Positions 20,357-37,950 of a stretch of 64,000 nucleotides of DNA are shown in pieces. The stretch comes from Lyophyllum atratum (taxonomy: Eukaryota; Basidiomycota; Agaricomycetes; Agaricales; Lyophyllaceae). The position numbers and the translations under genes are program-made. Under the pieces are notes generated by a model. The model was not told the origin of the DNA. It did not search any database and saw only the letters and a program-made list of their open reading frames with translations. Each line of letters begins with the position of its first letter. Positions within the stretch are counted from its first letter, which is position 1. The stretch is from assembly GCA_014905825.1 (NCBI GenBank), contig JACGCN010000047.1:186001-250000 (forward strand), read 5' to 3'.

Positions 20357-21138
20357 GCTCTCCCGAGAAGCAAATATCAGCCCCGCCTTCTTGTAACATC
20401 CAGGCTCTGTAATCCCTTTCTTCCGCAACCGCGCATGTAAAAACTAGACATCCGATGCTCATTCGCCTTGTACTCTACGCCGTGATGCTAGACTCCTGGC
20501 AATCCACGAACTCCAATACCAATGAACCGATGTAAGGGAAGTGTTTTTCGAGTGGCGTACTTTGAATGACCTCCTGCGTTCTCGGAAGGAAGACACGTAA
20601 CGGGACCATGCACTGCGGAATCCGGGCCTGAACTGAGTATTTGCAATACATGGTCGTTCTCACCTCGCCGAGCGCAAACTTAGACCGTCACGCAATTGCA
20701 CACGCCACGCGACTCTAGCAATGATTGGCGTCATATGGAAATTGTCCGGTCATCGAAAAGTCAGCTCAAGGCAGGGTTCTGTCTGGTTTCACGCATTTAA
20801 CGCAGAAGTTCAGCATGAATCTGGTGCTCCTACTGGTATTCGATACGTGGGTTATCGCGCAATTGCTCTACCCAGGATGAAATGAGGAAATGCACAAGTC
20901 AGACGCGAAGAGGGATATCGATAAATTAAAACAGAGACTAGATCATCACGGTGCCTCTCGCTAGATGTCGTAGTTCCTTCTATTTGACGCGTCAGACCGT
21001 AAACCCTAGTTGGCAAGGTTGATCGACAAGCAGAAAGCGTTTACATTTGCTGGAAAAGTCTATGTAGCTCGATAGGCTCGGATGCTATAGCTTCGTGTAC
21101 TAAGTTGCTCCTCCGATACGCCCGCGGTCTTGATTGGA
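20357..21138. other. Intergenic region, nothing recognised
   Basis: Lies between two convergent genes. No supported open frame, RNA or repeat. Confidence 0.5.
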
Positions 21139-22253
21139 CTATACATTCGTCAAGAAATCACCAACTACCTTCATGTACCTCTCCCTCTCCTCGAAGAACG
21201 GAACGTGCGAGCTGTTCGCGAACTGCACCCATCTCACTCTGGGCACGCTTTTGAAGAACGGAAGCATGCAAACGTCCTGGGCTTCGTCGAAGACCGAGTT
21301 CATCATCAAAGTGGGTACTTTGATGTTAGGAAGTATGTCGACGATGGTCCAATTCTTCAAAGTGCCAGTGATAGTGAATTCCGAAGGACCTTGCCTACCA
21401 AAGAAAGGAGATGGTACGTTAGTTAGATGGGAGGTAAACGTTCTGCTGAGGATACAACTAACATGGTTTGATAAACGGTCGGATCCTCTCCCATCGCCGC
21501 AAATGACGCGGTGAGATCTGCGGGCCACGGGTCCAGCCTGCACACATGCTGCTTATAAAAGACGTCCATCGCCTCCTGATACTCAGGCGCATCCGTGGTG
21601 CCGTCCGCCTCGTGCTCTTTAATGACGTCCTGCAAATTCTGTGGAAGCTGCTTCACCAACCCCGCCGTGCTCTCCTCCCACAGCGCCATAGACGCAGGTG
21701 TGTCGGTGACGATGAGGTGCTTCAGGCCGGGGGGTTGCCTCGCCGCAGCGAAGTTTCCACCGAGCATGCCGCCCCACGAGTGGCCGACGAGGTCGTAATT
21801 CCCGCTGATGCCGAAGTGTTTGAGGAGGTTCTCGAGCTCGTCCATGAAGAGTTCGACGGTCCAGAACTCCTTGGGCGCATCTTTGCGATGTGTGGATTGG
21901 CCGCCGCCGATCTGGTCGTAGAGGATGACGGGGATGCCATGGGATGCGAAGAGGTCGGTGTGGGGAGTCATGTAGTCATGGGAGACGCCGGGGCCACCGT
22001 GGAGGGCGATGAGCGGACGCACGCCGGGGGCGACCTTATTGAGGTTGCCAACGACTTTGTACCATGTCTGATATGTAGCTCCCTGATAGTGGAAATCGAT
22101 CTTGCCTGTGGATGTAGATGAAGCCATGGCGTACGTCCAGAGCTTGATGAATGGGCTAAATAGCAGGCTGGGCATCAGCACGATGCGCGTTAGAGAGGGC
22201 ATAAAGAGCGATTTCTGATGTGGTATTTGTTCCGCTTTCCCTTCTTCGAACAC
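21139..22253 (-). CDS. Proline iminopeptidase-like alpha/beta hydrolase (copy 1)
   Basis: Serine hydrolase of the prolyl aminopeptidase/L-amino-acid amidase type, which in this family removes N-terminal residues or acts on small amides. The longest frame starts at 22253; the Met at about 22202 (MPSLTRIVLMPSLLFSPF) is an alternative and would begin a membrane anchor or signal. Visible signatures are the oxyanion region LIALHGGPGVSHDYM, nucleophile elbow GHSWGGMLGG (Ser), acid region NSVFDEAQD and catalytic His in ANSSHVPFFEERERYMKVV. One intron after DPTVYQTM (GTTAGT to TTGGTAG). Length is normal, about 330 residues. The paralog at 27008-28037 shares the intron position. Nearby UstYa and precursor-peptide genes make a peptide-trimming role attractive, but that is inference. 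Confidence 0.85.
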
Positions 22254-22993
22254 TCGTATGCTTTCATATGTACGCGATGCACATGGCTACTGCTGTCTAT
22301 CTAGGTTCGATCAACACTAGGAGTTTCTGGCATTGGAACTTCGAAGGCAGTACCATGACAAATCCGAGTGTCAAATGATTAGACATCTTGCCATTTGTAG
22401 GGAGGGTCCCTCCAGATGTGGGATACGAAGCGTTTCTTTGATGAACCAACTGCAAGAAGTGAAAGCGACTTCGGCCATGCGCGCGAGTGGCCGCGGCGAG
22501 GGTGCACGTTGGGCCCTGTCCGAAGAACGGTTCTTGATCCCCGTGTAGAGCCAGTGTGAATATGAGCACAATATGAGCAGCATCCTCAGCAGATGCCGGA
22601 GTTTACTAGCAATCGTATGACATGATGGTAGAACTCGAAGTATACGATGCTTCGCCGGGCATCTCCGGGAGGTTGTCGCTATCTTCTTCCTGCCTTCGCA
22701 CATTTTGTCAGATTCCAGTTCGAACCCCATTTCATCAGGCATTCGGGTGAGACTAGATCTCTTTGGCGGCATCTGTAGTAACCGCCCAGTTTTTCGTAGA
22801 AAGTGGCGATCATCGATGCCCATGTCGAGTTGGAGAATGATACGTCAACTTCTCCAGATAACCCCGGCCGCATCTTGGGCTTATCTTTCTTGCTTCTTGC
22901 TGTACTTTGATCATGAGATGATAACACTTCAAACTCGGGCACACAAGTGAAAGACTACTGCATCAGCACAGCTGAGTCTCGCGCTGCAACGGG

Positions 22994-23617
22994 ATGTCTA
23001 CGACTCGAAATGTCTTCGCGTTTGTGCTCATACTAGCGAGCACGTTGAATCTCCTGCTCGTCATCTTGCGGGTGGCGCGCCCCTCCGGGACTTCGGACAT
23101 TCACAGTAAGATCCAAGTGTATAGTCTCTACGGATCGATGTTGATATCTGCCCCAGCTTGGCGGGGTCACGACTACCCCGAGTTCCTCCCCCTCCATACT
23201 ACCGAACCCGAGCTCGTGCACCTCAGGGTAGAGGAAAGCAATGCCTATCCTCTGCTCGGAAACGATTCTGACACCAATTGGTTCTCGCTCACGTCGGCAG
23301 GGTGGGGCTACACGCACCTTGGGCCTGAGGACCGCACCTTCATGGTCACGATCTTCCATGAAATGCATTGCATGAGAATGCTGAACTTCGCACTGGGGGA
23401 TTCAGCGAGCACCGAGCATGTCCATCATTGCTTGAACTACCTCCGCCAAGCAACGCTCTGCTCATTGGATTTGACGCTCGAGCCAGGTGACTTCGCTACT
23501 CGCAACTTCGAGACAGACAGGGTCGGGGCTTTGCATACATGCCGAGATTGGAGTGCAGCGTATGATATTATGGAAGAGCGGTGGGATGACTGGCTCAGGC
23601 GTAAAGGTCTTGCTTGA
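22994..23617 (+). CDS. UstYa-family (DUF3328) oxidative cyclase-like protein 1
   Basis: Type II membrane protein of the UstYa family; ascomycete members carry out oxidative cyclisation or modification of RiPP and other peptides. The N-terminal anchor is VFAFVLILASTLNLLLVILR. Both copper-motif regions are intact: HEMHC (FHEMHCMRMLNF) and HVHHC (HVHHCLNYLRQ), followed by HTCRDWSAAYDIMEERW. A canonical intron (GTAAGA at 23106 to CCCCAG at 23156, 51 nt) can be removed, giving SDIHTWRGHDYPEFLP. It has no stop and is a multiple of three, so an unspliced mRNA also codes for protein (207 aa unspliced, 190 spliced). The spliced form fits better, because family members have a Trp/Tyr-rich segment right after the anchor. 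Confidence 0.85.
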   Translation: MSTTRNVFAFVLILASTLNLLLVILRVARPSGTSDIHSKIQVYSLYGSMLISAPAWRGHDYPEFLPLHTTEPELVHLRVEESNAYPLLGNDSDTNWFSLTSAGWGYTHLGPEDRTFMVTIFHEMHCMRMLNFALGDSASTEHVHHCLNYLRQATLCSLDLTLEPGDFATRNFETDRVGALHTCRDWSAAYDIMEERWDDWLRRKGLA

Positions 23618-24021
23618 CTTTCTTAGTTACTGACATTTCGGAGCGTGTTATACTTCTGACACCCGAAATGATTTTGAGCTTTGCGACTCTGACCTAGTAA
23701 TGCAAAGACATTGAGAACAGCACGCTGTTCGTTTCTCTCGGACGTGTGTCTTGAGATTCAGCAATATTTACACTGCGGCTGGAGGTCTTCTCCGGTCCAG
23801 TGTCCCTATCGCGATGATTTAACGTCGATCGTTTCATAAATATCCTCCTGGTAATATATAAATGGAATGAGATGATGATCGAGGACCAGATAAAATGTTC
23901 CCTATGAGTCCCACAGAATGATCTACCCAAAAAAAATGAAGCTACCAGAGAAACCGAGGGCCGACATATCATGATATAAACGAACCAATCCGAGCCCGCG
24001 CAATTTAGTAATAAATAACAA

Positions 24022-25268
24022 CTACATGCTACCTGTCGACTTCATCTCGCGAACAACATGTCCATCCTCCAGATAGACATCGTGGCTGATCGTAACACCT
24101 CCGCCAGCTGATCCTTTCAAAGTACCACTGATGTTTGAATTAGAAGCCGCATTGAAAGTACCAAGCTTCCCCATGCGAATAGTCGATGGGCCGGTTGATA
24201 TGATAGCGGTTCCCGTGTTGCTGGACCAGGCCCTGCCTTGTGCAACGCGGAGTATAATGAGTAGTGGTGCGATAACCTAACACAGCCGAGAAGTGGCTCA
24301 GATTTCATTCGAAGTTGGAAAAAAACAAGGCAGGTACCTGAGCCGGGCTTAGCAGTCCTAGAAATACGTTTTGAATCGGGTGGTTGACAATGAATGGAAC
24401 AAGGAAGCAGAGGGAAGAAACAGAGTAGACTGCAGCGGACTCAACGACCATGGCCGCGATAGACGTGTACTGAGTGCCATGTGCCTTTCCGAGCATGTTG
24501 GATGTGCGGCGGCGGAACCATAGAAGGCGAGTAACGATGACAATGGTGGAGACAATGTTCAAAGCCAGGGACGTGCAGAAATAGGGAAGGACAAAGTTAA
24601 TAGAGCTTGAAGCCCACAGGTTTCCGGCTGGAGCCGAAACTTGGACAAGGAAAAGGACACCCAAGACTAAAATGGAGAAGGTGTATCAGAGACTGCAGCA
24701 GAGTATGTTCTGGAATAATGCGTACTGAACGAGGTTAGCAGGGCAGAGCAGGGTACGAACATCACTAGCCACATGGGGACACCACAACTTCGGTAGATGA
24801 CGAGCCAACGCCAAACCTGAGGTGATAACCGTTAGCGGTCGACCCAGAGCGCAGGAATTGCCTCACCATCAAGCCATCCGCGAGCCAATTTGCCACCACA
24901 AATGCGACATTACCCATGTTGTCGATTGGAATCGAGAACATGATCGTCTCAAACATAGCCGGGCCTCCAGGAAAGTTACGATTGTCGACAAATGACAGAC
25001 GCGCCATGTTAGCGGCGGCTGCCATGAAGATAGTGCCACAGATGAAAAGCGAACAGATGTACCCAATCAATGGGATATTCAGGATGTAATTGGAGCGTTT
25101 CGTTTGTCGGATGAGGAGGTTGAGGCACATGGCGAAGAGGGTGAGCTCTACACCGTACGCAACACCAAGGAGAATGGCGCCTTCAAGCCAAGTCCGCTCC
25201 GTGAAAAGTTGGCCAGGGAACTCTTCGACGGGTCTCCAAGAGGCGGGGTCTCCAAGGTCGTCAGCCAT
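24022..25268 (-). CDS. Agaricomycete 7-TM membrane protein
   Basis: Multi-pass membrane protein of a type common in Agaricomycetes, without a known function. The start at 25268 gives a short outside tail (MADDLGDPASWRPVEEFP). Hydrophobic helices follow: GAILLGVAYGVELTLFAMCL, NIPLIGYICSLFICGTIFM, ETIMFSIPIDNMGNVAFVV and SSINFVLPYFCTSLALNIVS. Later come SIAAMVVESAAVYSVSSLCF and APLLIILRVAQGRAW. The C-terminal tail ends VYLEDGHVVREMKSTGSM. Several short introns separate the helices; internal exon joins at 24660-24860 are less certain. The topology resembles a receptor-like protein, but no family signature proves signalling. It sits inside the UstYa region and could be unrelated to it. Confidence 0.65.
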
Positions 25269-27007
25269 AGATGAAAATTGGATGAGGCGTATGTGTGATG
25301 CTAAGTCCTGACGGAGCGTTCTTCTCGTACTATCTATAACCTAGTCACATATTTCTCTTTATGGTGTACCACGCACCCGTCATGGCCTTCGATACCAATA
25401 ATTATAGAATCAAGATGGCAGATGGCTCGTCCTTGGCGATTCGCCCCCATCATGTCGATTTCAACATGCAATTGAAACTTTGCGGGCTTCACGCAGATGA
25501 TCCCCGAACTCCAGACTCGTGGTAGAGTACGTCACTCCCACACCGTCTCGTATCAATGCAGAACCCATCATGTGTTGATACAAGTAGATATAGCAGAATG
25601 TTGTTGAGCTATGGATCCAGGTACCAGTTCCGATAGCCCCGACTAAAGCTGATCATGACCAAGCTACGACTATTTGGCGTTGGACCGTGACATCGGTGAT
25701 CTTATCATGTTTCCTGTCTGAGGAGTATCCTGTCTGCGGCCATGCGGAGTCGCAACGTTCACCGTTCTTAGTACAGTACGCCCATCGCCAGGATGCTGCT
25801 TCAATCATCACTTGAACTACCTCAGGCCTGGTGCTGTTATTTTTTGTCCGACTTTTCACTACTGGATTTCAATAAGAATACCCGTTAGTGCGTCCTCTCT
25901 CGATTTTACAGGCCAAGCCTTTTCATTCAATGGGTCGGATTGACGACGACGACGCTCATCGCCTTTGATATATCAGTCTGTCATCTATGCATGTTCCCTG
26001 GGGAAAACAGCCTCCCGATTGGCAGCCTGATTACAATGGGTTTGAGCGTACTTCAAGTTCGATCTTGATGTGTCTGGCTAGGTGCTTGCTTCTGAATTAA
26101 GCCCTGGAGTCTCTGTGACCCCGAACCTGAGGCTCTCCCCACATCGATCATCAACTCTCAACAAGGAAGGTAGCGTCTCCTATACCCATCAACAATCGAT
26201 TCTGGGGTCTCGATCACCTGCTAAAATCATCGTTGCTTCATACTTCTCCATATGTCCCACTAAATACTGCCGCGGAACCTTTGATTTTGACTCTCCATGA
26301 TCCTCCGATATGATTGTCTGGCTTTGCATCTTTCCACGAGGCTTGCAGGAGCTTCTATGCCTGCAGATAACCGTCTTGGCTGTCATCAAGAGCTCACCCA
26401 TTCAAAGCTATGACTTGATGGCCAAGTCGCTCAACCCCCGCCTCTCAAGAACTCTATCCGTCTGGGAGACAAGACGCCTGTATTACATCGCACGCGTGTC
26501 CAAGAAGCTGCCTCTCATCAGATTTCAGACACCTAACCGCCGCCACCCTAAACTAGTTTTCCTTCGTAGCCTCTTGGCGCTACTGTTCTGCGATCGTGGA
26601 TATCACGTCCCATGGCCGTTCACAGAGACACTTTGATCGTGGATATCACGTCCCATGGCCGTTCACAGAGACACTTTGACTGCTCTCTCTTGTTCTATAT
26701 TGAACAGTCTACGCTCTGTGTGAGGCCGATCTGTTTATCAGTTTACTACACGCTGATATTGGTTGAGTGCTCGATGAATCTCGAGCTTTTTCTGGATCCA
26801 TATGTACACTCTCTAACAGTTGTTGAGGCATTCAGTACTTTGAAAATTTCAGTTCAATCAATACCAAGTTTAAACGAAAGTACAAGTTCTCATGCAACCC
26901 AGTTGGTGGTGATCTTGGTTCAATTCAAGGAATACAAGAGCTCAAGATCACTTAGAGAGGGATACACCACATCTCGTACACAGAGGGTTAAATATTCGCT
27001 TCAAGAA
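25269..27007. other. Long gene-free stretch with a 43-bp tandem duplication
   Basis: About 1.7 kb between the 7-TM gene and hydrolase copy 2. Open frames present (for example 26310-26636 and 26612-27124) have no domain. It may be decayed coding sequence. Confidence 0.4.
26592..26677 (+). repeat. Tandem duplication of a 43-nt unit
   Basis: Two adjacent identical copies of about 43 nt, each starting GATCGTGGATATCACGTCCC. Perfect identity indicates a recent slippage or repair duplication. Confidence 0.85.
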
Positions 27008-28037
27008 CTAATGGCTCAAAAATTCCGTAACCACCTGCATGTACTTCTCGCGCTCCTCCCACATAGGTGTATGACTGGACTTCTCGAATGTCACCCACTT
27101 CGCGTCTTTGATTCCTGTGACTAAGGGTTCGACGACGAAGTCCATGGAGATGTCAGCGCGCCCATTAATCACGAGGATTGGGACGTGAACACTGCCCAAG
27201 CGATCGATGATGCTCCATTCTTTGAGCTCGCCGCTAAACCTGCCGACATGTATTGGTTAATAGACACCACGAAATGTATCTAGAATTGACTTACATCGCA
27301 ACGGGAACCGTTGGGTCCCCATCCGCTCCGAACACCTGATCTAGAGAATGACCGAACTCCTTCGGAGTCGGTTTCACTACACACCCATGGACGTCATAAA
27401 ATGCAGACAACGCCGCACGGTATGCAATCCTGTCGGCAAATCCCTTCTGAAGGGCTTCCTGAGTGTCTTTCGGGAATGCGGCCATGAGCTTTGCATTCGC
27501 TTCATTCCACAATGCCATGCTGGCGAGCGAATTCGTTACGATCAGGTGCTGCAAACCGGTGTGGCGCCGGACCTCGTACTCCAGGCCAAGTATGCCTCCC
27601 CAAGAGTGACCAAGAAGGTCGAATTTGTTGTGGATATCAAAGTGATGGAGAAGGTTATCAAGCTCGTCGAGGAAGAGGTCGATTGTCCAGAAGGATTGAG
27701 GCTTATCCTTCAGGTGGGTGGAACGGGAGCTGCCAAGCTGGTCGTACAGGATGACAGCTCTGTCCACGGCGAGATCACTCAAGGGTAGGAGATAGTCGTG
27801 CGAAAGGCCCGGACCACCATGAGCGACGATTAGTGGTGGGTTCCTGCCGTCGCCAATTCGACCAGACAGACGATACCAGGTCTGGTATGTCTCGCCGTTC
27901 ACGGTGAACGCTATGAAACCGTCTGTGCTAGAGACTCCGGCCCCTGATGCGGAAATAGGGAAGGAAGTCATGGCAGTGATAATGACGGTCAACAGATAGC
28001 TGAAGACACCCATGCCGGTGGTTGCCAGTGGGCGCAT
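27008..28037 (-). CDS. Proline iminopeptidase-like alpha/beta hydrolase (copy 2)
   Basis: Paralog of the 21.1 kb hydrolase. The start at 28037 gives a hydrophobic N-terminus (GVFSYLLTVIITAMTSFPIS) that looks like a signal peptide, so this copy may be secretory. Signatures are PPLIVAHGGPGLSHDYLLPL (oxyanion region), LLGHSWGGILGLEYE (nucleophile Ser), LVINGRADISMDF (acid) and FEKSSHTPMWEEREKYM (catalytic His). One intron after DPTVPVAM (GTAAGT to CGGCAG) matches the intron position of copy 1. The catalytic machinery is complete. Two copies bracket a UstYa gene and the 7-TM gene. A role in trimming secreted peptides would suit the secretory N-terminus, but the substrate is unknown. Confidence 0.85.
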
Positions 28038-28872
28038 GATCTCGGTTGGACTGGTATCATAACTTGGGGTGAAGATGTTATATCAGTCACAAAACCTGCC
28101 GACTCAATGCCATGGCGTGTTGTGTTGCTTTGATCAAGTGTTTAGTACTAATCGGTCAGTATAATACGTATCTCGGGCGTATTCTTGGAATTGTGGGTTT
28201 GATGTTGGTGGTCTGATAATGGAGAAGAAGAAGAATCCATACGCTGACTGCCGAACTCTTCGTATCTTGGCATGAAGATCTAGAGAAGTTCGGCGCTTAG
28301 CGCGTTGGCCTTGATATGTGTGTTCATGATGGAGTGCTAAGGTGCTGTCAGACAGGATCAGGGGATCTTAAATTGCTATGTCTCGTGGTCAGAACATGGA
28401 CACACTCCAAGAATTGATGCTGTTCTGGGACCCAGACTGGCAAATAGAGAATTGAATGGAAGTTCGTGATCGGGCGCGCCTGCTCATCTGTTCAGGCGTT
28501 TTTCCAGGAGTGACGTAGAAGTTATAGGATTTCGGCAAGATCAATCAGTCAACATTACCTATAGCTATCGTACTCATCGTTATCATAGACACACCCTCGA
28601 TTAAGCTGTAAAGCGACGGAAATCATTTCCGATTAGACTCGTGACCAGCCGCTATAATGAAGACAAGTCTGCGATACAAGGGCTTGTCTCATAGAGGGAA
28701 CGGTCACCGGTCTAATTTCCGATTAGCATATCCGATCTCCTTCGGGCACGGATGTTTGGTGTTTCCCGATCCAAGGCGCAGAGTCGAGTAACGCGAGGCA
28801 CGATGTTTAGACGTTCATTCGAAGGGCGGAATCGCAGCCAAAAATAGACTATTGCATTCGGCAAGTCGAAGA

Positions 28873-29908
28873 TCACAACAAAGGCGCCACTCCCATGCTT
28901 GCTACATTTCCAGCCAACGAATCTTGCTGAACTACGTGAATACCTGTTTTACAAGGTTTTTTTACCCGTCAGCAAAGCGCAGGGCACATGGCTATCGGCC
29001 AACTTACCTCCGTGCGGTTTTTCCTTGTTCTGCCAGAAGTCGACGTGGCATGGTTTACCAGTGTCTGAGCAGACGAATTCGAACGTCGAAAATAAGCCTG
29101 AGGGGCACCGATATTCTGGAGAAGACGCTTCTCCTCTCTCCGAAATAGTTAATGTCGTGAAATGGGCCTTTCTTGCAGGAGCGTGTTCCCATATCGTGTA
29201 CGGCGTTAGCTCATCGGGCGAATCCAAGGTCCAGACATCAATCATGCTTCTGTCTGTGATCTGAATAGCGGTATCGAGAATATCGCTGGGCATGGGGACC
29301 TTTACCAGAAGCCTGCAGCGTTCCATTCCATAGTCGAGATGCCGAAATTGAGCGACAGTTGACATCTTATGGGTTAGAGTTAGCTTGCAACTTGCAAGCC
29401 TGTAGTCCTTCTACAGAGCATACTTACCTCAGTGGATACGACAAAATGACGGTCATCCGGATAGATGGTCCCTACAGGAGACGGGTGACCACGTTCATCT
29501 TCATGCATAGTACGTTTGGGATCTGAGCGCTGAATTTGCAATACAACAGGCGGAAAGCCCACAATCGGAGGAAAAGGCTCTGTGTGATTCAAAAGGACTT
29601 TATCGATATTCATGTATTGGTTGGGACGGCGAAGGGGTTGGACTGATGGAGCATGACGAAGAGTGGAGCCAGTACTTGATACAGTAGCCAAGATAAACAG
29701 AGATATTAGAGACGAGACGATGGAGATGATGCAAGCCCAGAAGAAGAGTCGTTTGTGAGGTTGTGCTAGGAGGGGTCAGCAAAGTCTATCAGCTTATAAG
29801 GAAAGACAAACCTGAGGAATATACTGAACGCTCTTGCTTGTCGTCATCACCGTCGATGAGTTCCTCTGCAGAAGAGGGGAGCGTCGTATAATGGCTAAAC
29901 AAAGGCAT
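28873..29908 (-). CDS. Type II membrane protein, possibly But2 C-terminal-domain-like
   Basis: Start at 29908. An acidic cytosolic tail (SAEELIDGDDDKQERSVYS) is followed by one anchor (FFWACIISIVSSLISLFILA) and a long extracytoplasmic domain. Exons join as FVVSTE|MSTVAQFRHLDYGMERC and KEKPHG|GIHVVQQDS, ending VASMGVAPLL. The extracytoplasmic part has PNQYMNIDKVLLNHTEPFPP, then DTAIQITDRSMIDVWTLDSP and CSDTGKPCHVDFWQN. It resembles secreted beta-sandwich proteins annotated in Agaricomycetes with a But2-like C-terminal domain, though I am not certain of that assignment. It is divergent to the UstYa gene at 30246, leaving a shared region of 337 bp. Sharing a promoter with a UstYa gene suggests co-expression. 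Confidence 0.65.
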
Positions 29909-30245
29909 CCTGTCGGCGAAGGGGGAGGAATGTGGGAGGGAAAGCCACTCTCGTCGGTTTTCCCTAAGCGCCCCTGAGGCAAAGATTTGTTGACATCAGA
30001 TGACGATGGGTGGCTGCTGTAGACGTATTGTTTGACATAGAACCAAGGCGACTTGTGTAATGATATGATCAATCAATACGGCGGTACAATGCGAAAATCG
30101 GAGCCTTAGGCGATACTGGAGCCCAATACGGATGGAAATCCGTCGATGCTTTCAGTCCAGCTTCGCATTCAACTCACCACGCATAAACATATTTCTTTGC
30201 GACAACGTGTATCAGCCAACTCCAACTCTCGAGATACCAGGAGTT
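29909..30245. promoter_or_regulatory. Putative bidirectional promoter
   Basis: A 337-bp gap between the divergent membrane-protein gene (minus) and the second UstYa gene (plus). It must hold both promoters. Confidence 0.45.
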
Positions 30246-30880
30246 ATGGGGAATTGCCACTACAGATTGCCCGCCAAGACCGTCCTGTGCGCGACTTTGA
30301 CGATTATCATATCTCTTATCGTGCATGTTACAACAGCCATATTGCTGAGAGCATATATCTTTGGTCAGTACATATTCTCATTAGAAGAGGAGATGGATAG
30401 CTGACTGATATTCCAGAGAACGATAACACAAATCAATTCCCGATCGTGCCACGCCCAGCTGCCATGGTCATCGTCAATTCAACCCGATACGGTTTATACG
30501 ACGACGACGATTGGGCATCGCTTACTCCGCCTGGCCATGGATTTGTGCGCCATCCAGGTCGAGAGGAGTTTTACAGTGTGTCCTTGTATCATCAGATGCA
30601 CTGCTTGAACGCACTGCGAGGCCTCATCGCGGACCGCTCAGATCTCACGTTTCTCAGAGTCGGCCACGCCAATCACTGCCTCAACTTCTTACGCCAGATT
30701 ATTCTGTGTGACGCTGACACAACCCTCGAGCCGACAACGCCGACGATAGTGGCCGGCAAAAACATCAATGTGGTGACAGGAATTGGGGTGACCCACCAGT
30801 GTCGTGATTGGGCGCAGGTGTGGAAGTTCGCAGAGGATAACTATTGGGAACACCAGAAGAGCGGAAAGGGCGGAAAGTAA
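30246..30880 (+). CDS. UstYa-family (DUF3328) protein 2
   Basis: Type II membrane protein of the UstYa family. The start at 30246 gives MGNCHYRLPAKTVLC and an anchor (TLTIIISLIVHVTTAILLRA). One intron (GTCAGT to TTCCAG, about 30366-30417) joins AYIFE to NDNTNQFPIVPRP. Both catalytic motifs are intact: HQMHC (SLYHQMHCLNALRGLI) and HANHC (GHANHCLNFLRQIILC). They are followed by TTLEPTTP and the conserved THQCRDWAQVWKFAEDNYW. Predicted length is about 195 residues, normal for the family. The spacing between motifs (about 30 residues) fits enzymatically competent members. It is probably an ER/Golgi oxidase acting on peptides of this locus; that substrate is inference. Confidence 0.9.
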
Positions 30881-31023
30881 TTCGAAGAATCAGATAGTCC
30901 GTAGATCGCATGTTACATTGTATAGTGCCTGGACCCCCCTGGAATTCCTTCTATCTGTCAGGACCTATAGAACAAGAAAGTTCGTTAATAAAATGTATCA
31001 CAGAGTACTTCATTCATCAAACC

Positions 31024-31320
31024 TCAAAACGATCGGGCGCGTGGGAGCCCCAAGAACGCGTCTGGGTAGGCAACATCCGACTTTCCGTCACGCCGTTGAT
31101 AGAGAGTTATTCCGTGGATGATGAACGCGAGGGTAAGCAGAGAGAAGCAGATCGTAAGAGTGCAGATCATGTAGACCAAGCACGAGACGGTGGAGGAGGA
31201 TGCGTTCCTGTCTGAGCCAGCTGTGAAGGTCGCCGATTCCACCAGAGGTTTGGCTTCATTCTCCTCATCCTCATCTGAGGATCGAGGGAGGAAGGCGTAG
31301 TCGCGTGATATTTCCTGCAT
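31024..31320 (-). pseudogene. Truncated membrane protein related to the 28.9-29.9 kb gene
   Basis: A single frame encodes an acidic cytosolic tail (DYAFLPRSSDEDEENEAKPL), an anchor (TLTICFSLLTLAFIIHGITL) and a short outside segment DVAYPDAFLGLPRARSF, then stops. This order (acidic tail, anchor, then P-[DN]-x-[FY]-x-x-[IL]) matches the N-terminal third of the neighbouring type II membrane protein. No downstream exon with the extracytoplasmic domain is visible, since the next sequence is UTR of the UstYa gene. It could be a pseudogene, or a short anchor protein that is really expressed. Confidence 0.5.
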
Positions 31321-31995
31321 GATTCAGGCCTAAGGGAATAAATTAAGTGAGTGTGAAGACAAAGTAGACGCGACATATTTGGATAAAACCTTGTAAGGGG
31401 TGTGAGAGTGTCTGGGGAGGAGATTGATGCAAGACATGCTTTACTCCTTATCAGAAGGAAACCGTGCTTCAGTAATTTGTAATGTTCCGCTTGAATCTCT
31501 TGGAAGTCATTTGATACTGTGGTTGCGAGCGTCTGGCAAGTTGTGGAACCACCTCACGTCGGATGTGTGTGTAATAGAAGCGTCCCGAACAAATACCGCA
31601 CAACGCAAAACAACAAGACGCAACCCCATTCATCTTTCCTCGAGCGGCGCAACATCATCTTACCGAAGCTCAACCGATACATAAATCAAGGTGCAAGTTG
31701 GAATACAATTGAATCCGAAATTGAAGCTTCGATGCTCAAGCTCCCGGGCAGCAGAGCCCTTGGCAGATCTCATCGCAATGCATGACTGATCGAGCTCTTG
31801 TTTTTTGGCACTCTCGTGACGGTGCTGACCACGTATGTTTGACTTGCTGTCCTGTTCACGCCCTCCATTGGTGGAAGGTAATAGACATCGTGAGTCTTAC
31901 TCCCACACTTGCGCCGCTCAAGATATTCAATACTTAAAAAATTGTTTATAGATCTATTTCTAACAAAGCAAATAAACATGCTACGAGAGGATAAG

Positions 31996-32001
31996 TATAA
32001 A
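31996..32001 (+). promoter_or_regulatory. TATA box of precursor peptide 1
   Basis: TATAAA lies 88-93 nt upstream of the ATG of peptide 1, a plausible distance with a short 5' UTR. Confidence 0.5.
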
Positions 32002-32088
32002 GGGAACATCTGGAAATCCTAGAAATCAGCAAGCTTCACTGAGCGACGCGAAATACTTCTCTACACTCTAACAACCTCTTAAACCATC

Positions 32089-32287
32089 ATGTTCAACTAC
32101 AAGACTTTGTTTGTCTGCCTTGTGGCTGCCCTCGCGGTCCAGGCTCTTCCTACTACTCGTACGCCTCAATAACTCTCGGTCTAGCAAGCATACTGACGGT
32201 TATCTTTTACTTTCAGTCGAGGGAGAAGTTCCTTGCCGTAGGGCTGAATCTACTACTGACAGCATTGACCTCGCCCTCTGCGTCTGA
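32089..32287 (+). CDS. Putative secreted precursor peptide 1 (46 aa)
   Basis: Tiny gene of two exons (32089-32158 and 32217-32287). It encodes a signal peptide (MFNYKTLFVCLVAALAVQA), a short pro-region (LPTTLEGEVPC), a dibasic site (RR) and a C-terminal segment AESTTDSIDLALCV followed by stop. The intron (GTACGC to TTTCAG, phase 1) separates leader from core exactly as in the three other peptides at 33.8-36.0 kb. The two cysteines outside the signal are 14 residues apart. It lies 345 bp upstream of the third UstYa gene on the same strand. RR just before the core could be a Kex2-type cut. I infer a RiPP-like precursor; a small secreted effector-like protein is the alternative. Confidence 0.7.
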
Positions 32288-32373
32288 AGGTAGATAGGTC
32301 CATGCGTAGTGCAAATTCTCTTCTAACCGCCGTTCGTTAGACTTTCCTTGCCGACCAGTCGCCTTATTCAGTT

Positions 32374-32613
32374 ATGTACTACCAGTGTCGGGACTTTGAG
32401 AGCTACCCTGCGGCTCGCGTTTACCTTGGAAATATATATGATGTTCTACATGCTTTGACTGCCTTCCTCGAATCTAGACAAAGCGACATCTATGACGTAA
32501 AGTTTGATTCGCGCATAAAGGGGATATCAACTGCTCAGCTTTCGTATATAAGACGTCGCTTGTATGCGGCGAACACGACACCTCTTTCCTCGATGAGCTC
32601 AAAGCGTGCGTAA
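32374..32613 (+). other. Open frame between peptide 1 and UstYa 3, status unknown
   Basis: A 79-residue frame (CRDFESYPAARVYLGNIYDV) sits between peptide 1 and the third UstYa gene. No signal, domain or partner exon is evident. It may be leftover sequence from a rearranged gene. Confidence 0.25.
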
Positions 32614-32632
32614 TAAGCTACTGATACTCAGC

Positions 32633-33325
32633 ATGCCAAAACATTGCAACACAGATCAGCTAGGTCCGCTGCAGGCTTTTATTGGGATACTCGTCGCGGT
32701 ACTCGTTGTAACGGGTACGGTGATAAACTGGCGGTATGACCACACCGAGGTTCAGAAGACATCCCGAAGATATAGTAAGTTTCCCTGAGCCGCACTCGTA
32801 AATACTCTAGAATTTGACCATACGGCGCCCCTAGCGTATCATGGCTTGGACCACCCGCAGACATGGGATATACCCAAGCTCAACAAAGTGAAGATGGCTA
32901 TGGAGAACAGCGTCCACTATGACATCGACACCGAGCTTGGCATCGCCGAATGGAACGCCACCATGCCCTCTGGCGGAGGCATGCTCTACCTTGGAGACGA
33001 CTTACGCCCATTCAGCATTTCTATGTTCCACCAATTGCGATGCCTCAATATTCTACGCGAAGAGATCGTCACACAGTCTCACCGTAAACAGAAGAATCCC
33101 AGTGCGCTCGCTCACCACTGCATGAATTACGTCCGGCAGATGATCCTGTGCCGTGCCAATTTCCGACTGGAGTCAGTCAGGCGACCCGGCGGGATGCAAG
33201 TCACGGATCCATACGTCACTCACACATGCAACGACTGGACGGCTGTCTACGATGCGGCGGAGCAGAACTACGAGGAATTTTTGCGAAGGTTTTCTAAAGA
33301 CCCATTGGTGAGGCGATCCTGTTAA
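32633..33325 (+). CDS. UstYa-family (DUF3328) protein 3 with altered HxxHC motifs
   Basis: The start at 32633 gives MPKHCNTDQLGPLQAFIGIL with an anchor (AFIGILVAVLVVTGTVINW). One intron (GTAAGT at 32775 to CCCTAG at 32834) joins SRRY|TYHGLDHPQTWDIPKL. The family fold continues: EWNATMPSGGGMLYLGDDLR, SISMFHQLRCLNILREEIV, AHHCMNYVRQMILC and YVTHTCNDWTAVYDAAEQNY. In place of HxxHC the first motif reads HQLRC (second His to Arg) and the second reads LAHHC (first His missing). Ascomycete members need these residues for activity, so this copy may be a scaffold, a partner of an active copy, or have different chemistry. It lies directly downstream of precursor peptide 1. Confidence 0.85.
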
Positions 33326-33755
33326 ACAATGTGGCGCTTAGTCTCATCCTAATTCCTAGAGAGCAAAGTAAGGGTCGCGGAGTTTCTCGATGCCCCGGAG
33401 TCTAAGATAATTCAACCAAGATATCTATTTGTTTAGGTGTGCATTAGCTCGAAACCAAGGTGCCTTAACTTCGAATGCACGGGTCATGTCTGGACAAGAA
33501 ACCGTCAGATATTGTCTGAAGGAGAGATCAGTCATTAGTTCGTCGATTCGCATAGCGACAATTCCACACGAAGTCATTCGGGGAAATATTCCCCAACCTC
33601 TTGAAGTAAGAATTTCGAAAGCACATTTGTAGACGATGGCTCCTTCACCCAACAGGTATCCACCCTTGTTAATTCAGCCAGCCCTCCTAAAATCGAAGCT
33701 TGGATATGACCTACAATAGTGACCTCGCAATGAAGATCACTTACCCTATCTTATC

Positions 33756-33970
33756 CTAAACGCAAGGAGCGAGACCAGCGACCGCTTCGACGCCGTTTGA
33801 GGTTTCGTTGTTCTTGATCGGACAACTGTCTAAATACGATGATAATCAATAACGTAGAACTGATAGCGAGTAAGACGGGGCGTACTCTGAGGACCTGGGG
33901 CTGGGGCTGCGTTTACAAGCAAAACTGCCGCAAGACAGGCGATGAGCTTCATGACAATGGAGTAGTTCAT
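33756..33970 (-). CDS. Putative secreted precursor peptide 2 (52 aa)
   Basis: Two exons (33970-33886 and 33829-33756). The signal peptide is MNYSIVMKLIACLAAVLLVN, cut probably after AA. A short Pro-rich pro-region (APAPGPQNSCP) is followed by KNNETSNGVEAVAGLAPCV and stop. The phase-1 intron (GTACGC to TTTAG) is in the same place as in peptides 1, 3 and 4. The two cysteines outside the signal are 20 residues apart. A TATAAA lies about 60 nt upstream. Only the leader and the last eight or so residues are well conserved between copies, while the middle varies. That is the pattern expected of a conserved leader and recognition end around a variable core. Function is inferred. Confidence 0.72.
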
Positions 33971-34025
33971 GACGTTTTTGCAGTTGGGAGATCTTGGGGA
34001 TGGAGTGGTTATACCATACCTGGCC

Positions 34026-34031
34026 TTTATA
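34026..34031 (-). promoter_or_regulatory. TATA box of precursor peptide 2
   Basis: TATAAA on the minus strand, about 60 nt upstream of the peptide 2 ATG. Confidence 0.55.
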
Positions 34032-34282
34032 CTAGTGGCCCTCGAGTTATCATGTTAGCGAATTGATAGAATCTGTAGATGCTTCCGACGACTACGCATA
34101 ATTTCAACGCACCATTACGATCACCGCACAAGACGCACTGCGTCACTTTTGGTCGCCATTGGTCGCATGCAAGCGAGGACTCTACATTTCCAGGCAAAGC
34201 GAGTGTAGCGCGCCTTCTAAACCCATCACCACGGTAAATTCTCTTGGACACCGGACACCATTGACAGCTCCGTGATCAGGGG

Positions 34283-34316
34283 TTGGCACGTACTTACGCC
34301 TTCGTGAATGAATCAG
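34283..34316 (-). promoter_or_regulatory. Upstream element shared by peptides 2 and 4
   Basis: On the plus strand this block reads TTGGCACGT, a short spacer, CCTTCGTGAATGA and ATCAG. It lies about 320 bp upstream of the peptide 2 ATG. A matching block sits about 320 bp upstream of peptide 4 (36279-36313). It could be a regulator site or simply a remnant of segmental duplication. Confidence 0.4.
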
Positions 34317-35014
34317 AAAGGTCTTGTAGAGGATGTACTGGTTGGGATCCGTATAATTGCATCTGCCAATGCCATATCGGGTGGCCTCATACAAGACAAG
34401 GTTATCCGGGGTATAGTGCGTGATAGCGGTACAAGCCGTCACTGTTCGTCACGCGAGAGCAACGCATGGAGTAAAACGCATCGCACAAAGCAAAGCGAAG
34501 CCCTCTTCCATCGCAAGTTCGGGTAAGGCCGCAGGCGGCGGTTGTAAATCTGGATCCTCAGATCCTACCTGAGGACGCAGAATAATCCTGCCAGAAATAC
34601 TAGGGAAGTACGGAAGTGTTTGCGGACGGTTCAAGGAAGATCGCATCGAGGATACCCAGCGCTGAGGACATGTTCAGCTCATTCTCGTCAAAGTACGTTC
34701 CAGAACAGGTGTGTCAAGATCTTTTTGAGGTTGTTCGAGTTGCGGTTGAGCTTTGGGTGTCGCGGTCATGATGCATGATGCATGATGAGCGGAAGATGTG
34801 ATCGCTCAAAGTGGTCATGGCTTTTATTGTTGTTCTGGCATATTTATCCGCCTCCCCCCTTCCGACTCGCAAATAACTACCAGAGTCGAATTGGAAGCTG
34901 GACTTGAACTGCTCCCCACAAAACACCCAGCGGCGCCAGCGCTCATTGATATCCTCAAGTAAGAATTTCCGATGAATTTCAAGAGACATCGCGACATTAC
35001 AGAGCTACTTCATC

Positions 35015-35236
35015 CTAGATATAGTCAGCGATACCGGCAACCGCGTCGATGTCCTTCGAGCCAGTATTGGGTTTGACTGGAAGTGTAGGGTGGTGCGAGG
35101 ATTGTTATGAGTACAGGAATTTTTGGTGATCATAGTAGGCGCGAAACTCACCACCAAAAGCTGGGGCTGGGGTTGCATTTGCGAGCATGACTGCCGTAAG
35201 GCAGACAATGAGCTTCGTGACAGTCGAGTATTTCAT
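35015..35236 (-). CDS. Putative secreted precursor peptide 3 (48 aa, Cys-free core with Tyr)
   Basis: Two exons (35236-35152 and 35076-35015). The signal is MKYSTVTKLIVCLTAVMLAN, followed by ATPAPAFG. The core reads VKPNTGSKDIDAVAGIADYI and then stop. The phase-1 intron (GTGAGT to TTCCAG) is in the shared position. Compared with peptides 2 and 4 the C-terminal frame VAG-[IL]-A is conserved. However, the penultimate residue is Tyr where the others have Cys, and the internal Cys is also gone. The paired change suggests the two cysteines work together in the other peptides. A Tyr at that position is notable because UstYa enzymes are known to act on Tyr side chains. A TATAAA is about 60 nt upstream. 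Confidence 0.72.
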
Positions 35237-35296
35237 CGTGGACTTGCGGTTAGGAACTTTTGGTCGGAATGTCATGGGGAATCATGTCCGCCTCAC

Positions 35297-35302
35297 TTTA
35301 TA
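35297..35302 (-). promoter_or_regulatory. TATA box of precursor peptide 3
   Basis: TATAAA on the minus strand, about 61-66 nt upstream of the peptide 3 ATG. Confidence 0.55.
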
Positions 35303-35724
35303 CCAGTGTCCCACTGGACGGCATGCCAATGTCATGGCATAACTATAACTTGGATTGATTTGATTGAAGACATGTCATAGGCCCTGCCATGATCATCTGC
35401 CTTGAACGCCAAAATGGGCAGCCGTCAAGTCGGATCGGACGTTCTGAAGAGCTGTTTTTGACGACACAGCGCACTTCAGTCACGTTTGACGGAGAGCCAC
35501 GTAGTAGATGCTTGACGGCCGGAAAGCACTACACCGAGCTTGATCGAAAATTCATGGAATTCAAGTATAATCGCAAAGCAAGTCCAGCTATAAGCGCTTC
35601 TAGCGCGCAGAATAACTTCCCCTCGTTATTTTATTCAGACTGCTAGGTAAGGCTAGCACTTACTAAACACGACAGAAATATAGAACTATTGGGCGAGGGT
35701 GGCTCACAATGGTAATTCCGAGTC

Positions 35725-35963
35725 CTAGATGCATCCAGCGAGGTTGGCAACCCGTTCAGCACCATCCGCAGCCTCTTTGGGCTTCGTACATGAACAAGTA
35801 TCTACAAGGTGTGACTCGGTGGGTATAGGACGTGCAGTTGTAATTGCGACCAATGAAACTCACCGTTACATCTGGCGACGAACTCGGACGGAGACGGGGT
35901 CGCACCGACGAGGAGGACTGCAGTAAAACAGACCAGGAGTTTCGTGATAGTGGAGTAGTTCAT
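35725..35963 (-). CDS. Putative secreted precursor peptide 4 (58 aa)
   Basis: Two exons (35963-35864 and 35801-35725). The signal is MNYSTITKLLVCFTAVLLVG, then ATPSPSEFVARCND. The C-terminal part reads TCSCTKPKEAADGAER followed by VANLAGCI and stop. The phase-1 intron (GTGAGT to TTGTAG) lies where it does in the other three. This is the longest and most Cys-rich copy: four cysteines outside the signal (RCND, TCSC, GCI). The first exon is 15 nt longer than in peptides 2 and 3, so the pro-region has grown by five residues. It is the outermost of the minus-strand trio, and its upstream block resembles that of peptide 2. Confidence 0.72.
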
Positions 35964-36278
35964 TGCGATTGGGAAGCGTAGGCACTGGGAAGATAGGGAA
36001 AGGGGTTCTGGGTTACATTTAGCTTTTGTACCGCACCAGCTCGATATTCAATATTTATGCCACTTCGTGCATATAAAGACAGGGCAGAGAGTTCCGACAA
36101 CCGCGCAAGACTTTGCGTGTGTCCGAGGATTAAGTTGTAAATTGTCGTCTTCTTTCGTACGTCCGATATTAGCCCAACATCGACGAAGAAAGGTTGCAGA
36201 GGAGCCAACCTTATTCCTCGGTCACGATGGTCGAGTCGTTGCATTACAATCCCCTTCTGGGACTAGACCGACTAGGAC

Positions 36279-36313
36279 TTGGCACGTCAATATACCTTCG
36301 TAAATGAGAATCA
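36279..36313 (-). promoter_or_regulatory. Upstream element of peptide 4 matching that of peptide 2
   Basis: On the plus strand this reads TTGGCACGT, a short spacer, CCTTCGTAAATGA and ATCAG, about 320 bp upstream of the peptide 4 ATG, as at 34283-34316. Confidence 0.4.
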
Positions 36314-36999
36314 GCCAGGATTCATACGATGAGCAAAGCAAAGGCAAGACAAACCACGTATTACTTGTTAACCCCAGACGGTCTACGGCCGTCTAGTTGA
36401 ATCAGACGTTCCAAACTTGAAGGAACCCATGCACGGAAACAATGTAGAGTATCCCCGGGTGCGGCAGAAGTGGGATGTGTGCGACCTAGTGGTGACAGCT
36501 ACCTGTCGTGCAGCAAGAAGAATCTGGAAGACGTCACGCGATTTTTTCTTGATTTTGCGGCGTCTCGTCCTCGAAGACGAAGTAACACATACGGCCGTGG
36601 TCTGAGGTGCACTGCAGACAAATCGGAGAGGTAGTCTGACTCTTGAAAGACGGCGACAAACCGCTGGCCCGCCATTCAGAAGACGATCTGTAGTACGTCA
36701 GGTCAGTACCGATCAGCGGAGAGCCATGTATGCCAGGTTGTGGACGAACATACTATTCTGTGTGCTCTCAGTATGACTTCAAGGAGATGACGATAATTTG
36801 AGTTACGCCTTGTTTCCCGGTTCACGCGATATAGAAAGTTCGTGTCATTTCGCTTGTTGCGGTTTTAATTATAAGATATGGATACGGCGTAGTTGTAATT
36901 GTCTCGTGCTACTGATACAGTGGTCCTCGCGGAGGTTGATATGGGTATGCGTTGAGTCGTTAGGGCATGGGATGCCAAAAATAGAGTAAGTTCCGGTGA
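36314..36999. other. Intergenic region, nothing recognised
   Basis: Short open frames only. It separates the peptide array from the left copy of the PPxY membrane protein duplication. Confidence 0.4.
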
Positions 37000-37950
37000 A
37001 TCGTCGAAAATGAATGTGGGCATGCGTGTGAAGGTCGAAGCAGATAGGCATGCGATGGTGAGGACGAGGTTGGGTGTAGGGTGTTTTGAGTTTGAAGGTG
37101 AAGGGTAGGGATATGTTCATGCGAGTCTTGCGTTTATGACCGCATGACAGCCCAGGCAGCGATTCCACCTATCACAGCGAGGAGGACGAGCATAAGCAGC
37201 GCCCAAAGGCATCGCATCGCCCAGCGGACCTCCACCCTCCTCATCTCTGCAATGACGCGCTTGCGTTCCGCGTCAGTCTTGTCTGCCATCCATCCACCCT
37301 CCACATCAGTCTCATCGCTAGGTGCGCGCAGCGGCGACCAGAGGATCCAAGCACCCATGATCCAAAAAGGTGGGAACACTATAAGACGAAGGATGTTGTC
37401 AGTACGAGATCGTTGAGAAGGAGAAAGAGAACAACTCACGGAATCCAAATTTAAAGAGGTAGCGCGCGAGCGTGAGGGGCTCGGGAGCTTTGATTGCGTA
37501 TGTCGGAGGAAGGTCCTCGACGTAAGGTGGGAGTGCCTCGGCAGCGCTAAGGTCGTGCCGGCTCTCGTGCGTACGAGAGGCAGAGAGTGTGTATCCGAAA
37601 TAGTCATCGAGCGGGCTGCGCTCGGGCACCACAGTGGGCGGGGTACGCGATGTGTATGTGAGCACCGGGATAGGGGCGGGCAGGGAAGTCTGAGCTTCGA
37701 TGTCGACGGTGACAGTGGAGGTGGAGGCTACGGGGGCAGACATTGTTCAAGTCGGTTGTAGGCGGTGGTGTAGGCTTGAAGTTGCAGGCGATGCGGGGCA
37801 GGGGCTGATGAGGATGACATCTTGGTGCCGCCGCTTATATAGAATCGGTCAATATGCAGGATTGGTCGGGGAAAGCGAAGCCAATCCAGGGGTCGTCAGG
37901 GAACGTGGAAACCGATTGGATTGGTGCCTACAACTGCAAATATACTAACA
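37000..37950 (-). repeat. Left arm of an inverted segmental duplication
   Basis: Sequence from the promoter through the 3' UTR of the PPxY membrane protein gene matches 51660-52620 in opposite orientation. The upstream match includes a TATATAAGC-type TATA region and the GTTTCCACGTTCC block. Similarity fades in the 3' UTR. Confidence 0.8.
37134..37743 (-). CDS. Small PPxY-motif membrane protein (left copy)
   Basis: Unrecognised family of about 185 residues. The N-terminal half is soluble and Pro-rich (TYTSRTPPTVVPERSPLDDY) with two PPxY-type motifs (ALPPYVEDLPPTYA). These could recruit WW-domain proteins such as Rsp5 ubiquitin ligase. One intron after YLFKFGF (GTGAGT to TTATAG) joins LFPPFWIMGAWILWSPLR, the first hydrophobic segment. 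A charged loop (DKTDAERKRVIAEMRRVEVR) follows, and a second anchor, LLMLVLLAVIGGIAAWAV, ends the protein. It is nearly identical to the right copy (51874-52483) and has a diverged relative at 50619-51231. Possibly an adaptor for ubiquitin-dependent membrane protein sorting, but this rests on the motifs alone. Confidence 0.8.

Follow-up and report, generated by a model that had tools for sequence, protein, structure and literature searches.

A candidate UstYa-type peptide-maturation system with tiny single-core secreted precursors in the mushroom Lyophyllum atratum

The closest described counterparts of the system considered here are the dikaritins (ustiloxin, phomopsin and asperipin-2a). Their precursors carry a signal peptide and repeated cores flanked by Kex2 sites, are encoded beside UstYa (DUF3328) genes and are expected to be processed in the secretory pathway. 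A stretch of 64,000 nucleotides from the agaric Lyophyllum atratum (contig JACGCN010000047.1, positions 186,001 to 250,000; hereafter the window) holds four genes for tiny secreted peptides, p1 to p4, beside UstYa genes. These precursors share the signal peptide, the UstYa neighbours and the expected route with the dikaritins. In contrast, each has one core of ~14-33 residues without repeats, and none has a Kex2 dibasic site except for one RR in p1 (CRRA). The sequences of p1-p4 thus bear out the single-core precursors, unlike the repeated Kex2-site precursors of dikaritins, that had been claimed for this locus. Although UstYa proteins with two HxxHC motifs (U1 and U2) are encoded nearby, p1-p4 are not filed as dikaritins because the repeated Kex2-flanked cores are absent. 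A further difference is that each of three loci of this genome also has a But2-like protein and a histidine-deficient UstYa. The layout of a single-core peptide, two motif types of UstYa and a But2-like protein would be a variant on the dikaritin scheme of UstYa with a secreted precursor. We put at roughly 55% the probability that p1-p4 belong to a UstYa-type peptide-maturation system with single-core secreted precursors, UstYa/But2-like machinery and a layout unlike that of dikaritins. This reading is built on the observed gene models and how they are organised, on the joint occurrence of UstYa and But2-like genes at three loci, on a second peptide elsewhere in the genome, and on the presence or absence of the locus between haplotypes.

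Other described systems share some of these features; sources cited by PMC number are represented here by excerpts, and what is said of them holds for those excerpts. The KEPs (Kex2 repeat proteins) of Agaricomycetes are likewise small secreted precursors, and they have XP/XA dipeptides such as STE13 removes (PMC9769878). p1-p4, however, have neither repeats nor dibasic spacers, and their UstYa neighbours set them apart from most basidiomycete KEPs (PMC7329392). Membership of this family was rejected, as no repeats flanked by Kex2 sites are present; Tandem Repeats Finder, at a score limit of 50, reported nothing between 26680 and 48788. A 2020 survey supposed that basidiomycetes use a different motif or hardly any cyclisation (PMC7329392). 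The lichen UstY clusters of clans R1 and R2 also have secreted candidate precursors without repeats, and their authors, who did not identify the precursor, suggest that there may be just one core peptide; these clusters come from Ascomycetes, and the excerpt mentions no But2-like partner (PMC12048977). Pleurotus ostreatus, an agaric, has 16 UstYa-like genes, six of them developmentally expressed and allele-specific, from which dikaritin production is supposed; the excerpt describes no precursor peptides (PMC8893723). The DUF3328 copper enzyme CctR shares its complete HxxHC..HxxHC site with U1 and U2, but it is a homodimer acting on a non-ribosomal peptide, whereas each locus here adds a UstYa that lacks one histidine per motif (PMC12435403). 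The combination of single-core peptide, canonical UstYa, histidine-deficient UstYa and But2-like protein was not found described among the open-licence PMC papers listed, represented mostly by titles and the starts of abstracts. To our knowledge, no mushroom UstYa has an established substrate. If the proposed system is real, each UstYa locus yields a short list of testable precursors.

Two further classes of fungal peptide were compared with p1-p4. Basidiomycete pheromone precursors have a C-terminal CaaX and no signal peptide; p1, p2 and p4 end in Cys-Val or Cys-Ile and p3 in Tyr-Ile, all four have signal-peptide-like starts, and identification as CaaX mating pheromones was rejected. Cycloamanides have a cytosolic MSDIN-type leader and borosins a fused N-methyltransferase, and the secreted precursors of 46-58 amino acids have neither.

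Splice models agree with the predicted set of four two-exon genes (46, 52, 48 and 58 amino acids) with phase-1 introns at 32089-35963 (Table 1). In each, a short signal-peptide-like exon 1 is followed by an exon 2 that encodes a short C-terminus, the signal peptides being called from hydropathy and by eye rather than with SignalP. The introns measure 58, 56, 75 and 62 nucleotides in p1 to p4, and all four are phase 1 and bounded by GT..AG. Several alternative splice choices exist for each of p1, p2 and p4. A TATAAA box lies upstream of p1 (−93), p2 (−61) and p3 (−66); p4 is without one and has CATAAA at −96. The background for TATAWA at −110 to −40 is 64 of 2554 sampled positions. The mature parts contain 2, 2, 0 and 4 cysteines, respectively, and p3 alone has a tyrosine there, in its Tyr-Ile end.

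A profile search with p1-p4 over 5.77 billion sequences (69 candidates) gave a single match, the annotated L. atratum protein FPV67DRAFT_1680561; p1, p2 and p4 were not among the proteins found. Apart from 13 additional residues at its N-terminus, FPV67DRAFT_1680561 is identical to p3, and it is spliced in the same way. Its annotated start lies 27 nucleotides past the first base of the p3 TATAAA, roughly the expected transcription start, and the shorter start is preferred for this reason. Searches of the genome with p1, and with the leader consensus of p2-p4, found no relative elsewhere. The original prediction had named homologues widespread without UstYa neighbours as evidence that would count against it, and the searches of this genome gave no such set.

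The claimed relatedness of the four peptides stands in part. The mature parts of p2 and p3, and of p2 and p4, score above 2000 of 2000 shuffles, while the p3/p4 score was reached by 72/2000; by these scores, p2 is clearly related to both p3 and p4, and the likeness between p3 and p4 is less strong. The gapped score of p1 was reached far more often, by 191/2000 shuffles against p2, 889/2000 against p3 and 704/2000 against p4. Its last 13 residues gave 23/5000 against p2 and 30/5000 against p4, but 966/5000 against p3. On this alignment p1 is a distant relative of p2-p4 at best, through those last 13 residues. The shared end VAG[LI]A that had been described is present in p2 and p3 and does not extend to p4 (VANLAGCI) or p1 (IDLALCV).

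Chance was assessed with a mechanical scan for a hydrophobic start, a phase-1 intron and a length of 35-80 amino acids. Because these criteria were devised after p1-p4 had been seen, the passing of p1-p4 is not independent. Ten ATGs pass in the 64-kb window, and the five with a [CYFW][VIL]-stop ending all belong to p1-p4. Each of 20 Markov-resampled windows has 0-6 passing ATGs, and across all of them a single one has the narrower [CY][VI] ending. A set such as p1-p4, within 4 kb around a UstYa gene, is not expected by chance. A search of the genome with the C-terminal pattern returned 8 matches against 6 in a reversed control. Three of the 8 are p2-p4, and none of the other five gave a signal-peptide model, so a genome-wide family defined by this motif was rejected.

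The setting of p1-p4 recurs in this genome. All 13 UstYa matches in the 64.8-Mb assembly fall in three loci: the window, C1 + C65, and C68 + C130, the latter two being apparent allelic pairs. The But2-like domain of C1, used as query at E <= 0.1, matches five places, which are C1, C65, the window, C68 and C130. This protein query was used in place of the PF09792 profile, which gave no match in the whole genome but left 14 controls unmatched too. The But2-like proteins score 18.3-22 bits with PF09792, and they are named But2-like only because these scores are under the curated cut-off of 24.2. The chance that three independent But2-like genes all lie in UstYa neighbourhoods is of the order of 1e-8, a rough estimate that assumes a UstYa neighbourhood of ~60 kb in a 32-Mb haploid genome. 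Every locus has one or two canonical (A-type) UstYa genes beside one histidine-deficient (B-type) gene, A and B being motif classes rather than proven lineages because the canonical genes formed no clade in a quick tree. The B-type motifs read FHQLRC..LAHHC in the window and at C68, and IHQLQC..MAQHC at C1. The C1:4530000-4556000 / C65:106000-131000 locus contains two canonical UstYa genes, one histidine-deficient UstYa gene, a But2-like protein and a 42-residue peptide. The iminopeptidase-like enzymes of the window are not part of the shared set, since the compared C1/C65 and C68/C130 stretches had no iminopeptidase match.

The C1/C65 peptide indicates that tiny single-core secreted peptides linked to UstYa, as claimed for the window, are not a one-off. 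Its sequence, MRFFVSLIVLASFVAFTVAAPMPDDG|EFVDPDSTQQDAPHWF, is encoded by two exons with a phase-1 intron behind a TATA-like box, and its ATG lies 1.9 kb from a UstYa open reading frame (ORF). It is unrelated in sequence to p1-p4, has no cysteine and contains His-Trp-Phe. Between the C1 and C65 alleles, four codons differ synonymously and a single residue is replaced (M22A, within the XP stretch). The peptide had no match among annotated L. atratum proteins, and a database search gave one relative, P0091 (1/1 candidates), which differs at 4/26 leader residues and at 0/16 residues of exon 2 and in which the intron sequence is changed. P0091 appears to read through the intron. Because it keeps the exon sequence and changes that of the intron, the intron of the C1 peptide is supported, and constraint on the core is suggested by this one relative. 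Annotation may tend to miss genes of this kind: only p3 among p1-p4, and not the C1 peptide, was recovered as an annotated L. atratum protein.

The third locus offers a weaker candidate, a 50-residue secreted peptide at C68:713706 (−) that ends in RPGCS and has TATAAA upstream; the allele at C130:1068217 (+) is identical. It stands head to head with the apparent first exon of a canonical UstYa gene 1.2 kb away, and its splice is ambiguous, with several possible acceptors. This candidate emerged from a reading of the sequence, longer models at the same ATG having first been offered by the scan. Its penultimate cysteine suggested homology to p1-p4, which was rejected because the likeness is not significant. 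Three other models with an aromatic/Cys end at C68/C130 were set aside by eye as not being signal-peptide genes.

A strict filter combining signal peptide, phase-1 intron and TATA[AT][AG] was written after the C1 peptide was found, whereas the mechanical scan predates knowledge of that peptide. Its TATA motif is laxer than the TATAWA test and accepts TATATG (p4) and TATAAG (C1). The strict scan returned five genes in the UstYa zones (40.7 kb), namely p1-p4 and the C1 peptide, and none in 95.3 kb of flanking sequence. Phase-1 models without a TATA box number three in the 95.3-kb flanks and one in the C1 zone.

The histidine-deficient UstYa of the window, U3, starts ~345 bp downstream of p1 and is without the full HxxHC..HxxHC site, Arg and Leu replacing two histidines. 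Among 186 candidates, 89 homologues of U3 were found at E <= 1e-5, a set gathered with U3 as query in which canonical UstYa proteins are under-represented. The named homologues are from Agaricomycetes, and species with close relatives of U3 include Tricholoma furcatifolium (P0003) and Collybia nuda (P0004). Arg takes the place of the second His of motif 1 in 81/89 aligned homologues, and Leu, Ile or Met that of the first His of motif 2 in 80/89; the remaining His of each motif is retained in 88/89 and both Cys in 89/89. With Arg common to 81/89 homologues, decay of a pseudogene was rejected as an explanation for the degenerate motif. As judged by this alignment, U3 represents a subfamily of UstYa proteins found widely in mushrooms. 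DUF3328 proteins act as copper enzymes in the lumen, and their HxxHC..HxxHC site is placed where the subunits of a dimer meet; in CctR, four His in one plane hold two copper ions in the dimer, and activity is lost when His or Cys is mutated (PMC12435403). In an antiparallel helix pair, the positions of the two lost His would oppose one another, and for this reason the B-type may keep one of the two copper sites or may partner a canonical UstYa. The type thus offers a test of one-site against two-site copper chemistry.

U3 is 100% identical over 94% of the query to the annotated protein FPV67DRAFT_854450, from which its N-terminus differs. Window positions 32372-32606 form an upstream extension in the FPV67DRAFT_854450 model. 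Because the extension was seen in none of the other U3 homologues compared and contains TATATAAG, it is probably a misannotation.

With cleavage placed by eye, the exposed N-terminal ends of the peptides are APAPGP, TPAP, TPSP, LP, APMP and VAAP, which are X-Pro/X-Ala dipeptides. Ends of this type are commonly seen in secreted proteins of fungi. From these features we infer a pathway in which the enzymatic steps, the cleavage sites, the action of UstYa on the peptides, the pairing of A with B and the part played by the But2-like protein would be as follows. Each locus would encode at least one tiny precursor composed of a signal peptide, a few X-Pro/X-Ala dipeptides and one short C-terminal core. 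The precursor would enter the endoplasmic reticulum, where signal peptidase would cut ahead of the XP stretch. A Ste13-like dipeptidyl peptidase would then trim the N-terminus, helped in the window locus by a secreted iminopeptidase-like enzyme; STE13 removes dipeptides of the X-Pro/X-Ala type from ascomycete pheromones (PMC9769878). Membrane-anchored UstYa proteins with lumenal copper sites would oxidise the core, the canonical A-type working with, and perhaps dimerised with, the histidine-deficient B-type. This topology fits secreted precursors because DUF3328 enzymes are lumenal (PMC12435403). The But2-like membrane protein would be an accessory, for example in substrate binding or in copper or electron supply, and its linkage makes it a candidate for the accessory factor supposed by the CctR authors (PMC12435403). 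The matured peptide would finally be secreted. The fullest form of the proposal, with single-core precursors in locus-specific families, a heteromer of canonical and histidine-deficient UstYa, a But2-like partner and one locus that is haplotype-polymorphic, is put forward tentatively, as somewhat less likely than not to be right.

Several observations weigh against a UstYa-type maturation system. All UstYa/But2-like co-occurrence lies within one genome, and the genome counts of both are lower bounds. The quick tree places the UstYa genes of the three loci far apart, the canonical ones forming no clade, and the C1 histidine-deficient UstYa is likewise far from those of the other loci. U3 itself may not be a canonical enzyme. 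Likeness among the peptides of the three loci does not reach significance, the C68 candidate does not pass the strict filter, whose scan finds nothing in the C68 zone, and the controls for tiny peptides are 95 kb beside the loci rather than the genome. The exon-2 conservation in P0091 (0/16 against 4/26) comes from one relative and is not significant alone. p1, p2 and p4 have no tyrosine in the mature part, and the even cysteine counts (2, 2, 0 and 4) point to disulfides. In Basidiomycota, moreover, a DUF3328 neighbour was seen for only 103/1680 (6.1%) Kex2 repeat proteins (PMC7329392). This low linkage would be explained if the precursors are tiny single-core genes missed by annotation.

The cysteines lead to the most serious alternative, in which p1-p4 are small secreted peptides of an ordinary kind (with an antimicrobial, effector-like or signalling role), linear or disulfide-bonded, and the UstYa enzymes serve another substrate. 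p3 lacks both the penultimate Cys and the upstream Cys, as expected of a pair, and the peptides of different loci do not match in sequence. Agarics, in addition, commonly have tandem families of small secreted peptides. We nevertheless consider this reading unlikely, for it leaves unexplained the tiny two-exon secreted peptides at a second, and perhaps a third, UstYa locus, as well as the lack of any peptide relative found elsewhere in the genome. An improbable account would make the peptides bystanders in a secondary-metabolite or signalling cluster with a non-ribosomal product. UstYa proteins also act on non-ribosomal peptides, and one enzyme of the family hydroxylates non-ribosomal cyclochlorotine (PMC12435403). 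Two of the five TIGR01250 genes of the genome sit in the haplotype-specific block described below, and a P450 fragment lies at 46202-46612, though outside that block. No non-ribosomal peptide synthetase or polyketide synthase domain was found, however, in a partial Pfam scan of 20 window ORFs, and it is a tiny peptide, present at two and perhaps three loci, rather than the iminopeptidase that recurs with the UstYa genes. It is very improbable, finally, that some gene models are wrong in their splice sites or as chance ORFs, leaving a smaller family. The weak alignment of p1 with p2-p4, the alternative splices of p1, p2 and p4 and the several acceptors of the C68 candidate speak for such errors. 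Against them stand the annotation of p3 with the same splice, the near absence of such a peptide set by chance in the 20 resampled windows, TATAAA upstream of 3/4 peptide genes, and the P0091 relative of the C1 peptide, with its kept exon sequence and changed intron sequence.

The gene set of the window lies in a block of ~16 kb that is present or absent as one unit between haplotypes. The block holds both iminopeptidase-like genes, U1-U3, the But2-like gene, a multi-transmembrane (multi-TM) protein and p1-p4. Searches with the UstYa proteins, the peptides, the 3.9-kb region and the iminopeptidases found no second copy of the set in the assembly. Of the 154 bp that replace the block in the other haplotype, C97, 95 bp resemble window positions 21006-21094 at 79%. 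Because this relic remains there, loss from C97 by deletion is suggested rather than insertion into the window haplotype. A transposon origin was rejected, as neither a target-site duplication nor a terminal inverted repeat was seen at the edges. If the maturation system is real, mates could differ in the peptides that they make, given the presence or absence of the window locus between haplotypes. Short dispersed repeats also occur in the block, at 28632-28715 and 28982-29071, and many other contigs match them at ~76-100%.

Table 1. Coordinates of the peptide genes, their neighbours and the haplotype-specific block in the window
Feature	Positions	Strand	Details
p1	32089..32287	+	exons 32089-32158 / 32217-32287; 46 aa; signal peptide then LPTTLEGEVPCRRAESTTDSIDLALCV; splice model
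p2	33756..33970	-	exons 33970-33886 / 33829-33756; 52 aa; C-terminus VEAVAGLAPCV; splice model
p3	35015..35236	-	exons 35236-35152 / 35076-35015; 48 aa; C-terminus IDAVAGIADYI; splice model
p4	35725..35963	-	exons 35963-35864 / 35801-35725; 58 aa; C-terminus AERVANLAGCI; splice model
U1, canonical UstYa (FHEMHC .. HVHHC)	22994..23617	+	single exon as read; PF11807 8.3e-14, 52.4 bits
U2, canonical UstYa (YHQMHC .. HANHC)	30246..30880	+	intron 30364-30416; PF11807 4.2e-21, 76.3 bits
U3, histidine-deficient UstYa (FHQLRC .. LAHHC)	32633..33325	+	intron 32775-32834; PF11807 6e-16, 59.4 bits
But2-like single-TM protein	28949..29908	-	three exons by eye; PF09792 18.3 and 21.1 bits
PIP1, proline-iminopeptidase-family hydrolase	21139..22286	-	start at most 22286; TIGR01250 1.4e-46, 159.3 bits (exon 1)
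PIP2, proline-iminopeptidase-family hydrolase	27008..28037	-	two exons; TIGR01250 9.3e-38, 130.4 bits (exon 1)
Multi-TM membrane protein (by eye), unnamed family	24305..25340	-	ORFs; C1/C65 locus has 28% similar ORF
Haplotype-specific block	20514..36797	.	C97:694246-694399 (154 bp) in place; flanks collinear at ~90-96%

All three UstYa proteins of the window score above the PF11807 cut-off of 25 bits, and U1 and U2 carry the complete HxxHC..HxxHC site. PIP2 has an N-terminus that is signal-peptide-like by eye. The first exons of PIP1 and PIP2 fall under the TIGR01250 cut-off of 167.65 bits; the five genes matched by TIGR01250 in the genome are PIP1, PIP2 and those on C76, C46 and C64, the last weakly. 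Neither ORF of the multi-TM protein was matched in Pfam. A 98-residue single-TM ORF at 31027-31320 (−) ends in YPDAFLGL, which by eye resembles the start of the But2-like lumenal part; it is perhaps a truncated But2-like copy, and tblastn found no match to it in the other UstYa loci. Beyond the block, a two-exon membrane protein gene occurs as an inverted duplicate at 37128-37946 and 51670-52485, with 90% identity within the window and 88-90% in haplotype comparisons. A distance of 330 bp separates the start of one of these duplicates from the block edge.

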